NCBI GenBank assembly: GCA_937958145.1
Contig: CALGOE010000232.1
Location: forward strand, 1 to 34,706
Length of the DNA: 34,706 nucleotides
DNA from: an uncultured Desulfobacca sp.
Lineage (GTDB): Bacteria > Desulfobacterota > Desulfobaccia > Desulfobaccales > Desulfobaccaceae
Direction: 5' to 3'
Shown here: in pieces, positions 2,040 to 7,748 of the stretch
How the letters are laid out: the number at the start of each line of letters is the position of its first letter
Numbering within the stretch: the stretch's first letter is position 1
The notes under the pieces: generated by a model
Database searches by the model: none
What the model was told of the DNA's origin: nothing
Seen by the model: only the letters and a program-made list of their open reading frames with translations
Translations under genes and position numbers: made by a program

Positions 2040-3185
2040 ATGAAGTTGGTCATTGCTGTTCTGTCCCTTCTGATTATTGCGGGCCTGATCTATCAGGCGG
2101 CTGCCCTGTTGGCTCTGCATTTTTTCTGCCGCCGGTCCCGGCCCCGCCTGCCGGCAGGGGTTGAGCCGGGGATTACCGTGCTGAAACCGGTGCGGGGGGT
2201 GGATGCGGGCACCCGAGCCTGTCTGGCCAGTTTTCTGCAACAAGACTATTCCGGGCATCAGGTCCTCTTTGGCGTGGCCGCGGCTGACGATCCGGTCCTG
2301 CCGTTGCTGGCGGAACTGCAGGCGGCTCATCCCGAGGTGGAGTGCCGGACTGTGCTGTGCCCCCAGTCTCTGGGTCTGAATCCCAAGGTCAGCACGTTGC
2401 GGCAGCTCCTGCCCCATGCCAGGCACGACCTGATCGTCATTGCCGACAGCGATGTCCTGGCCCCGCCGCACCTCCTGCAAACCCTGGCTGCGGCCTTGCA
2501 GGAGCCGGGAGCGGGCCTGACCTCCTGTCTGTACCGGGCCGGGCCGGTGCGGACGGTGGGCAGCGCCCTGGAGGCGTTGGCCATCAGCGCAGATTTCATT
2601 CCCTCGGTGGCGGTGGCCCATTATCTGGAAGGGGTCAGCTTTGCCTTGGGCGCGGTCATGGCCGTCCGCCGGGAAGCGCTGGACCAGATCGGGGGGCTAG
2701 CGGTCATTGCCGATTATCTGGCCGACGATTATCAGTTGGGGCACCGGGTGCACCAGGCCGGGTGGCAGGTAACCCTGCTGCCGTTGGTGGTGGCAACGGG
2801 GCAGCCACACGCCGGCCTCAGGGGTTTTTTCTCCCACCAGTTACGGTGGGCCAGGACCTATCGAGTCTGCCGACCGCGCGGGTTTCTGGGCTATGGCATT
2901 ACTTTTGTCGTGCCCTGGAGTCTGCTGGCCTGGGAGCTGGGGGGGCTGACCTGGTGGGGCGGGGGTTTGGTCGGGATATCCTGTCTGACCCGTTGGCTGG
3001 TGGCTTGGATTTCAGAACGGGTGCTGTTGCAGGGGCGGCTGCCAGGACGCTTTTTTTTCTTGCTGCCGTTGAAGGATCTGCTATCTTTCGCTTTATGGGC
3101 GCTCAGTTTCGGGGGCGACCGGGTGGTCTGGCAGGGGCGATCGTATCGGGTGCAGCCGGATGGTCGCCTGCAAGAGCTCAAATGA
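2040..3185 (+). CDS. hpnI: HpnI-like / ceramide glucosyltransferase-like glycosyltransferase (GT21-like)
   Basis: N-terminal TM, GITVLKPVRGVD, DSDVLAPPHLL, SFALGAVMAVRREAL, ADDYQLGHRVHQAGW, QLRWARTYR: GT21/HpnI hallmarks. Confidence 0.8.
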   Translation: MKLVIAVLSLLIIAGLIYQAAALLALHFFCRRSRPRLPAGVEPGITVLKPVRGVDAGTRACLASFLQQDYSGHQVLFGVAAADDPVLPLLAELQAAHPEVECRTVLCPQSLGLNPKVSTLRQLLPHARHDLIVIADSDVLAPPHLLQTLAAALQEPGAGLTSCLYRAGPVRTVGSALEALAISADFIPSVAVAHYLEGVSFALGAVMAVRREALDQIGGLAVIADYLADDYQLGHRVHQAGWQVTLLPLVVATGQPHAGLRGFFSHQLRWARTYRVCRPRGFLGYGITFVVPWSLLAWELGGLTWWGGGLVGISCLTRWLVAWISERVLLQGRLPGRFFFLLPLKDLLSFALWALSFGGDRVVWQGRSYRVQPDGRLQELK

Positions 3186-3195
3186 AAAGGAACGT

Positions 3196-3948
3196 ATGGA
3201 CCCGGCGGAGTTGACCAAACTTCTGGAAGAGGTGCAGAGCGGCCGGTTGAGCGTGGCGGCGGCCCAGGAACGGCTTGTGCATCTGCCTTTTGAGAACCTG
3301 GGGTTTGCCCACATTGACCACCATCGCCACCTGCGCCAGGGCTTTCCCGAGGTGGTGTTTGCCGCGGGTAAAAGTGTGGAGCACCTGAGAGGCATTCTGA
3401 CGGCCCTGAGCCAGCGGGCCCGACAGATCCTGGTCACCCGTTTGGAACCGGACAAGGCTGCACAGCTCCAGGCAAGTTTTGGGGAAGCGGTGTATCACCC
3501 GGAGGCCCAGGCCCTGACGTTTGGCCTGGACCAGGCCGAGGACCGGGGGCGCGGTCTGATCCTGGTCATCTCCGCCGGCACTTCTGACCTGCCGGTGGCC
3601 GCAGAGGCCTGCCTGACCGCCCAGATCATGGGAAATCGGGTGGAGGCCATCAATGACGTGGGGGTGGCCGGACTACACCGCTTATTGGCCTATAAAGAGA
3701 AGCTGCAGGAGGCTGCCGTCTTTGTGGTGGTGGCCGGCATGGAGGGAGCCCTGCCCAGTGTGGTGGGGGGCTTGGTGCAACGACCGGTCATCGCCGTGCC
3801 CACCAGCGTCGGTTATGGCGCCAGCTTCGGTGGCCTGGCGGCCCTCCTGGGAATGCTCAACTCGTGTGCCTCCGGCGTGGCGGTGGTGAACATCGACAAC
3901 GGCTTCGGGGCCGGGTATATCGCCGCCCTGATCAACCGCCGGGAGTGA
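3196..3948 (+). CDS. larB: Nickel pincer cofactor biosynthesis protein LarB (AIR carboxylase-like)
   Basis: MDPAELTKLLEEVQSGRLSVAAAQERL...PFENLGFAHIDHHRHLRQGFPEVVFAAGKS...SAGTSDLPVAAEA...VGYGASFGGLAALLGMLNSCASGVAVVNIDNGFGAGYIA. Confidence 0.93.
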   Translation: MDPAELTKLLEEVQSGRLSVAAAQERLVHLPFENLGFAHIDHHRHLRQGFPEVVFAAGKSVEHLRGILTALSQRARQILVTRLEPDKAAQLQASFGEAVYHPEAQALTFGLDQAEDRGRGLILVISAGTSDLPVAAEACLTAQIMGNRVEAINDVGVAGLHRLLAYKEKLQEAAVFVVVAGMEGALPSVVGGLVQRPVIAVPTSVGYGASFGGLAALLGMLNSCASGVAVVNIDNGFGAGYIAALINRRE

Positions 3949-5713: not shown

Positions 5714-7015
5714 ATGGCCGACGTTCCTTTGCTGTTATGCCTCAATCCCTGGGTCTATGATTTTGCTGCCCACGATTTTTTTGCTCGGCCGTTGGGTTTG
5801 CTTTTGCTGGCGGGACAATTGCGGGCCGCCGGCTACCGGGTGGCGCTGCTGGACTGCCTCAGTCGGCCGCTGACCGGCCGGAGCCCCACCGGGCGGTGGC
5901 CCAAAGAAATTCTGCCGACACCGCCGCCCCTGCAGGGGGTGCCCCGGCATTATGGACGGTATGGCTTGCCTCCGGACCAGGTGCGCCAAGCTTTGGCCGC
6001 CCTCCCCCAGCCTCCGGCGGCGGTGCTGGTAACGTCGCTGATGACCTATTGGTATCCCGGAGTGCAGGCCGCCATCCGGCTGGTGCGGGAACACTTCCCG
6101 GCGGTTCCGGTAATTTTGGGGGGCATTTATGCCTCTCTGGTCCCGGAGCACGCCAAGGCCAACAGCGGTGCCGATTTTGTCATCACCGGGCCGGGAGAAG
6201 AGGCGGTTCTGGCATTGCTGGCCGATCTCACCGGCTTTGCAGGCCAGACGAACGCCAGGGCAGGGGTTTATCCGGCCTGGGACCTGCTGCCCGACCGGCG
6301 GTTGCTGCCGATCCTGACTTCCCGGGGCTGCCCCTTTGATTGCGATTATTGTGCCTCCCGCCTCCTGGCGCCGGTCTTTCGGCGGCGACAGCCCGATGAG
6401 GTGGTGGCGGAGCTCCATGACTGGCATAGACGCTTCGGAGTTAGGGATGTGGCCTTTTATGACGACGCCCTGTTGGTGCAGGCCGAACAGCATCTCTTGC
6501 CGATTTTAGAAGGGGTGAGGCGCCTCAAGCTGCCGCTGCGGTTTCATACGCCCAATGCCCTGCACCTCGGTCTGCTTACTCCGGATATTGCCCGGTGGCT
6601 GCGGCAGGCCAACTTTGCCACCCTGCGACTGGGGCTGGAGACGATGGAAAGCGACGGGAGCCGACGGGATCGGAAAGTCCAGGCCGGTGATCTGGCGCGG
6701 GGCGTGGCGGCCCTGCGGGAGGCTGGTTTCACCGCCGACCAGATCGGCGTCTATCTCCTCCTGGGGTTGCCGCATCAGGAGGATGCGGCGGTGGAGGCTG
6801 CCATCAGGGCTGTCCGTCGGGTGGGGGCAACGCCGGTTTTGGCCCAGTATTCGCCCATTCCGGGGACCGCCCTGTGGCCGGAGGCGGTCCAGGTCTCCCG
6901 CTATGACCTGGCCGCGGACCCCATTTTCCACAACAATTCCATTTTCCCCTGTTGGCCGGAATTTTCCTGGGAGCGGTACACCAGATTAAAGAACCTGGCC
7001 GCCGGTCGGGGCTGA
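5714..7015 (+). CDS. B12-binding-domain radical SAM protein
   Basis: N-terminal B12-binding-like region (VILGGIYASLVPEHAKANSGADFVITGPGEEAVLALL) and radical SAM CxxxCxxC (TSRGCPFDCDYCAS). Confidence 0.9.
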   Translation: MADVPLLLCLNPWVYDFAAHDFFARPLGLLLLAGQLRAAGYRVALLDCLSRPLTGRSPTGRWPKEILPTPPPLQGVPRHYGRYGLPPDQVRQALAALPQPPAAVLVTSLMTYWYPGVQAAIRLVREHFPAVPVILGGIYASLVPEHAKANSGADFVITGPGEEAVLALLADLTGFAGQTNARAGVYPAWDLLPDRRLLPILTSRGCPFDCDYCASRLLAPVFRRRQPDEVVAELHDWHRRFGVRDVAFYDDALLVQAEQHLLPILEGVRRLKLPLRFHTPNALHLGLLTPDIARWLRQANFATLRLGLETMESDGSRRDRKVQAGDLARGVAALREAGFTADQIGVYLLLGLPHQEDAAVEAAIRAVRRVGATPVLAQYSPIPGTALWPEAVQVSRYDLAADPIFHNNSIFPCWPEFSWERYTRLKNLAAGRG

Positions 7016-7028
7016 ACCAAGGAGAAGG

Positions 7029-7748
7029 ATGGGAACGTCGACTGCCCGGAAAGCGCCACCAAAAGGGGCGTATTGGCGGAAGGCCAAGACGGCTGCAGCC
7101 CACTATGCCGCCCACGGGGAGGCGGCCCGCCTGTCGGTGGCGGAAGTGGTGGCTCGGTATGCCGTAGCGGTGGCGCCGGTGGGGTGGGATAGCCAACCGG
7201 ACCAGAACCTGTTGGAGGCAACGGCGCGTACCGCCGCGGCCCTGAACAGGTTTTATGAAACCTGGGAAGCCCAGGGCTGGCAGCGGGCCCTGGCCCAGCT
7301 CGGCATTGCGGCCCACGCCGGACACAACTGGGAGGCCCTGATGCCGGCTCTGCTCGACGCCCTGGCCGGGCCGGGGGCCCATCTGGCTGAAGCCGTGGCG
7401 AGAACCGCTCTGTTGGACCATTTCGCCGCCATGGGCCTGCTGGACGATGTGGCCGCGGCCGTCACCGGCAATGTCGACGCACCGCCGCTGCCCCCCGGCG
7501 ACGGCGCTTGGCATTTCCTGGCGTTGGCCCTGTTTCACCGTTATATCGCCGATATGGGGGAGACCTTGGAATTTCATGCCCCGTCTGTGGCGGCGGGGCG
7601 GGAGCGCCAGGAAGCCATCCGAGCCCACTTCCTGGCGCAGCTGAACCTGCTGCTCTCCCTGACCGGCGAAGAAGATGGTTGGCAGAGCCAACCGCTGACC
7701 TGGGTGGAAAATTTCCTCGGTCTGTTGGCAAACTACCATGGCCGTTAA
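7029..7748 (+). CDS. QatB-like protein of a Qat-type anti-phage locus
   Basis: 239 aa, starts MGTST..P..G.YW..AKT.., LSVAEVVARY; overlaps the downstream QueC-like gene; assignment rests on the MGTS N-terminus and the coupling to a QatC-like gene. Confidence 0.6.
   Translation: MGTSTARKAPPKGAYWRKAKTAAAHYAAHGEAARLSVAEVVARYAVAVAPVGWDSQPDQNLLEATARTAAALNRFYETWEAQGWQRALAQLGIAAHAGHNWEALMPALLDALAGPGAHLAEAVARTALLDHFAAMGLLDDVAAAVTGNVDAPPLPPGDGAWHFLALALFHRYIADMGETLEFHAPSVAAGRERQEAIRAHFLAQLNLLLSLTGEEDGWQSQPLTWVENFLGLLANYHGR

Follow-up and report, generated by a model that had tools for sequence, protein, structure and literature searches.

A QatB-QatC gene pair with an invariant Met-Gly-Thr-Ser start, kept by descent in Desulfobaccales without QatA or QatD

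The window, that is, the whole 34,706-nucleotide stretch of DNA that we analyzed, carries on its forward strand two overlapping genes, qatB and qatC, preceded by a gene for a B12-binding radical-SAM protein. The features of the locus are the following.

5714-7015, plus strand: gene for a B12-binding radical-SAM protein (Pfam PF02310 and PF04055), ending 13 bp before qatB
7019-7024, plus strand: Shine-Dalgarno-like AAGGAG before qatB, read directly from the sequence
7029-7748, plus strand: qatB (239 aa), a short-tailed QatB, from PADLOC QatB, an NCBIfam match below cut-off, a PDB profile match and Foldseek
7029-7040, plus strand: QatB codons 1-4, Met-Gly-Thr-Ser, unchanged in all 21 readable homologues, with codons that vary synonymously
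7029-7088, plus strand: QatB residues 1-20, MGTS-xx-R-xx-P-(4-5x)-W-R-x-A-K, from a 17-homologue alignment and an AlphaFold2 model
7738-9036, plus strand: qatC (432 aa), overlapping qatB by 11 bp, from NCBIfam QatC and PDB QatC 9vlk and 9zee
8161-8178, plus strand: SGGLDS pyrophosphate loop of QatC, residues 142-147, with S142, G143, G144, D146 and S147 invariant (n=22)
8503-8511, plus strand: QatC triplet Thr256-Arg257-Thr258, whose threonines align with P. aeruginosa T278/T280, for which mutants are published (PMC13279940)
8671-8739, plus strand: QatC zinc cysteines C312, C328, C331 and C334, invariant (n=22), corresponding to P. aeruginosa C334/C354/C357/C360

The qatC product scores 345 bits against NCBIfam NF041925, above the cut-off of 280, and matches the PDB QatC entries 9vlk (E=9e-61) and 9zee (E=2e-51). 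A Pfam match to PF06508 (30 bits) places it in the QueC superfamily, and it has the PP-loop ATPase fold and zinc site of canonical QueC, but it reaches only 20 bits against the QueC model TIGR00364, for which the cut-off is 150, and the genome contains a separate QueC. The SGGxDS loop, Arg211, the Thr-Arg-Thr triplet and the four zinc cysteines are all invariant in the 22 QatC sequences of the order, and Arg211 corresponds in the alignment to R233 of P. aeruginosa QatC, which binds adenosine. The Tyr and Asp with which QueC and Cap9 bind CDG are absent from QatC, where all 22 sequences have Thr256 and Thr258 instead.

QatB is a divergent member of its family, with 41 bits against NCBIfam NF041924 (cut-off 100); because this score lies below the cut-off, its identity was tested in other ways. 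PADLOC reports a QatB match (1.7e-8), and an order-specific profile built from 17 homologues matches crystal QatB chains with E=2e-12 and 2e-8. The AlphaFold2 model (pLDDT 84) matched 9y01/9y02 in Foldseek with probability 1.00 and a TM of 0.57-0.68; the next match had probability 0.10, and none other among the matches listed exceeded 0.2. The 239-aa protein is thus predicted to adopt the helical QatB fold. In the model, a short disordered tail leads into helix 1 (residues 14-32), and pLDDT rises from 49 over residues 1-10 to 84 over residues 11-20. A disordered tail of 30-90 residues is reported for many, not all, QatBs; the AlphaFold2 model and the profile alignment place no such long tail here, where it comprises ~13 residues, and the core sits 38-45 residues closer to the N-terminus than in the solved QatBs. 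MGTS and the tail Trp persist in this shortened tail. In P. aeruginosa, QatB binds QatC through an acidic patch, for which our reading of the alignments showed no evident conservation in the Desulfobaccales clade.

Residues 1-20 of QatB are MGTSTARKAPPKGAYWRKAK. The preliminary description had read a Met-Gly-Thr-Ser start, which we confirm from the ATG at 7029 behind AAGGAG, and had proposed an alignment of homologues as a check on the invariance of Gly2. The alignment bears the invariance out: among homologues drawn from genomes in the same genus, family and order, MGTS is the same in every one of the 21 QatB N-termini of Desulfobaccales that can be read (17 aligned and four more, one homologue starting with GTG), despite a median pairwise identity of only ~35%. 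Two further loci were left out of this count, one with an N-run at the start (L055/L067) and one with a CAGTTTT repeat there (L041). At L041:7387-7450, the repeat stands in place of the qatB start codon and MGT while the remaining frame is open, and this qatB is either a decayed gene or an assembly error. Across the 17 aligned sequences, M1, G2, T3, S4, R7, P10, W16, R17, A19 and K20 are invariant, so that 10 of the 20 invariant QatB columns fall within residues 1-20 (hypergeometric P ~2e-7). The codons themselves vary: order homologues use GGA, GGC, GGG and GGT for Gly2, four ACN codons for Thr3 and four TCN codons for Ser4. This synonymous variation at codons 2-4 places the conservation at the protein rather than the DNA level. 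It also refutes the idea that codons 1-4 are kept as a translation or RNA signal, an explanation that their position at the start codon might have suggested and to which we now give a negligible probability. Once Met is removed, Gly2 is presumably the acceptor.

Among 395 genomes of the phylum, QatC passes the cut-off in 17 of the 18 sampled from the order but in just 5 of the 377 from elsewhere. In a larger sample from the order, QatB, QatC or both are present in 22 of the 23 genomes with a completeness of 90% or more. In the QatC tree, the order members form one clade (100/99), within which the sampled multi-member genera each stay together. The QatB and QatC distances correlate closely (Mantel r 0.93, 0/2000 permutations), and in the two genomes in which the operon is broken up (G010 and G007) qatB and qatC are both retained. 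Reading the flanks by eye, we found chromosomal core-type genes kept across one family, including a tilS-like gene, a sensor kinase with a response regulator, and an ion-channel gene pair. QatBC is kept by descent in Desulfobaccales, with an almost housekeeping-like inheritance.

The other two qat genes are missing. For QatA, no score with NF041923 (cut-off 600) exceeded 26 bits across 29 Desulfobaccales genomes. The operon contains no QatD; the sole related gene in this genome lies at a distance from the operon, within the window (27481-28215, minus strand), and is a TatD-family gene that scores 90 bits to QatD, for which the cut-off is 230, and looks like an ordinary housekeeping TatD. Four of the five QatCs outside the order belong to classic qatA-qatB-qatC-qatD operons by gene order (one of the four was checked gene by gene against PADLOC), and their QatBs also start with MGTS; the fifth adjoins QatD and has a masked stretch upstream. 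On a short contig, L156:776-2628, a gene upstream of qatC encodes a protein of 188 aa that begins MGTSSNQPSPKTPSWGL; this may be a further QatBC with a short tail from beyond the order.

Compared with the qatABCD systems of P. aeruginosa (9zee/9zef) and E. coli (9vlk/9vll), the pair has the same QatC family, the same QatB fold and the same arrangement of adjacent overlapping genes, together with the MGTS start and conserved tail Pro and Trp, the SGGxDS loop, the two threonines and the zinc cysteines. It differs in lacking QatA and QatD, in a QatB that scores below the NCBIfam cut-off, in a tail that is basic and ~13 rather than 30-90 residues long, and in its vertical inheritance and near-universal presence across the order, whereas qatABCD is sporadic. 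Our literature search returned no paper joining QatC with Desulfobacca, and what is new relative to the published Qat literature is this order-wide, short-tailed QatBC pair free of QatA and QatD. The likeness extends to type IV CBASS, where Cap9 acts on a CD-NTase substrate by N-terminal deazaguanylation: both systems set a QueC-fold enzyme beside a Met-Gly-x-Ser partner with a flexible tail. Here, however, the partner is a helical QatB instead of a CD-NTase, and QatC is without the Tyr/Asp nucleobase pocket of Cap9.

Related arrangements were seen elsewhere. Another two-gene unit occurs in other Desulfobacterota (L157:6779-9659, L054:7668-10533, L168:5255-8135 and L169:4039-6904), encoding a protein of ~700 aa whose N-terminal domain is QatC-like (~200 bits, below the cut-off). 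Its upstream overlapping partner, of ~260 aa, starts with MGHVRLGxLPRxRxW, thus combining Met-Gly with a tail Pro and Trp; the L157 partner had no Pfam, NCBIfam or PADLOC match, and none of the four partners matches the QatB profile. At L170:5029-6986, a divergent QatC-like gene follows a partner that starts MSDGPFKNLRLTKRW, with Ser at position 2 and a similar Trp tail, and that appears from its sequence to be a natural exception to Gly2.

The gene upstream of qatB raises the question of a third component. In most genomes of the order the radical-SAM gene stands immediately upstream of qatB, while the genes beyond it differ by family (tilS in one, others elsewhere). Its 13-bp spacing and this fixed place order-wide despite changing farther genes would suit a three-gene system in which the radical-SAM enzyme makes or modifies the QatB-attached group or methylates QatB, as would the correlation of radical-SAM with QatC distances (r 0.89) and a protein fold resembling the methylases TsrM and MgmA. 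Yet shared vertical descent alone could yield the distance correlation, and in three order members (G010, G018 and G026) the gene is unlinked to qatBC. Genomes across Desulfobacterota that lack QatBC also carry the subfamily, and a siroheme-decarboxylase homologue and an MtnA-like gene are often its neighbors there. Because the family is so common without QatBC, the case for a three-gene system is weakened, and we judge it distinctly unlikely; the radical-SAM gene is a conserved neighbor for which membership in the system is unproven. In the literature search, no paper mentioned radical SAM alongside QatB and QatC. Farther upstream in the window (3160-3945, plus strand) lies a gene for an AIR-carboxylase-domain protein (PF00731) that looks like LarB; several further loci likewise have a similar gene close to the one for the radical-SAM protein.

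The host's own preQ0 genes bear on what QatC does. QueE and a canonical QueC with the YPD motif are encoded on contig C124 of the same genome, and a QueD homologue on C240. With a separate canonical QueC, QueD and QueE at hand, QatC is unnecessary for preQ0, in agreement with the earlier suggestion that this enzyme may not serve to make it. Moreover, E. coli QatC fails to restore queuosine in a queC mutant (Libby et al., PMC13329287). QatC could still be imagined as a small-molecule enzyme that yields preQ0 or a related product, with MGTS incidental, given its place within the QueC superfamily (PF06508). This is highly improbable in view of the canonical QueC and QueE in the genome, the failed complementation, the loss of the CDG-binding Tyr/Asp and the invariance of MGTS. 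Judging by these genes, the host genome probably has a CDG supply. Neither QueE nor QueC was detected in the QatC-bearing genomes G006 (93% complete) and G011 (97% complete), an absence that is not decisive because the assemblies are incomplete and queE and queC are adjacent. A gene that looks QueD-like by eye lies on the strand opposite qatC at L033, oriented 14586-14957, and has counterparts at eight further loci. In one Desulfobaccales family, several genomes have it ~5 kb from qatC, which may be plain synteny.

The conserved MGTS start of QatB and its possible modification by QatC have already been described (Gao, Wassarman and Kranzusch 2026, PMC13279940), and the idea of Gly2 as the acceptor is an independent rediscovery of that published hypothesis, not a new one. 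In that study, the QatB substitution G2D or deletion of residues 16-22 led to loss of defense, QatC active-site residues were essential and catalytic mutants lost defense, and a 1:1 QatB:QatC complex sufficed for defense against phage lambda (PMC13279940). AlphaFold3 placed the QatB tail in the QatC site, and two invariant QatC threonines were noted where QueC and Cap9 hold CDG by Tyr/Asp; QatC activity could not be reconstituted, and the crystal contained no CDG (PMC13279940). The papers that we consulted describe no covalently modified QatB.

We consider it probable that the locus encodes a two-gene pair in which QatC attaches a carboxylate-derived group to Gly2 of QatB in an ATP-dependent manner. 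Methionine aminopeptidase would take off Met1 and expose Gly2, which would enter the QatC active site on the short QatB tail. As QueC does, QatC would use ATP to adenylate and so activate a carboxylate; attack by the Gly2 amine would then join the group to the QatB N-terminus through an amide. The donor, we infer, would be 7-carboxy-7-deazaguanine or another small carboxylate, and the output would most likely be Qat anti-phage immunity in a form fixed on the chromosome. The acceptor and the enzyme are well supported by the conserved acceptor, the ATP and zinc machinery and the lineage-long co-inheritance. By analogy with the published relatives, Gly2 and QatC catalysis would be needed for function; the covalent bond at Gly2 is our inference. 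Counting against attachment are the failed reconstitution and the CDG-free crystal (PMC13279940), the change from Tyr/Asp to Thr/Thr, the two genomes (G006 and G011) without QueE/QueC, a tail much shorter than in the studied members, and an acidic QatB patch with no evident conservation. Since Thr-Arg-Thr replaces the CDG-holding Tyr/Asp, "deazaguanine" is unproven as the added group. The proposal in the preliminary description that QatC adds a deazaguanine-type base to QatB therefore holds in part: the genuine QatB/QatC pair, the protein-level Gly2 motif and the G2D result (PMC13279940) make its acceptor half sound, but not the identity of the group.

Some of these observations could also be read as signs of a non-covalent plug or regulator, with MGTS docking in the QatC site and controlling ATP use. 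The CDG-binding residues are replaced and no modification was found in vitro (PMC13279940), and the conserved R7, P10, W16, R17 and K20 resemble a docking peptide. Nevertheless, the strict N-terminal Gly motif parallels the covalently modified CBASS acceptor and QatC retains the full ATP-activation loop, and we regard such a plug as unlikely. Attachment at Gly2 thus remains our preferred reading. Taken more broadly, we tentatively put forward a rather doubtful picture in which QatBC of Desulfobaccales would be, by later change or from the outset, a near-core cellular protein-modification system, with a stand-alone enzyme tagging the N-terminal glycine of a short-tailed partner, rather than a mobile defense island, with the B12 radical-SAM enzyme possibly supplying or altering the group.

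With neither QatA nor QatD and a tail of ~13 residues, QatBC here is a natural minimal system, and the minimal pair lends support to the published view of QatBC as the functional core. It also points to the tail residues that cannot be lost, here MGTS, R7, P10, W16, R17 and K20, and its compactness makes the pair well suited to mass spectrometry and structure determination. In Desulfobaccales, QatBC may serve either a fixed immunity or a housekeeping function; if the role is not defense, QueC-derived protein modification would have a role outside immunity.
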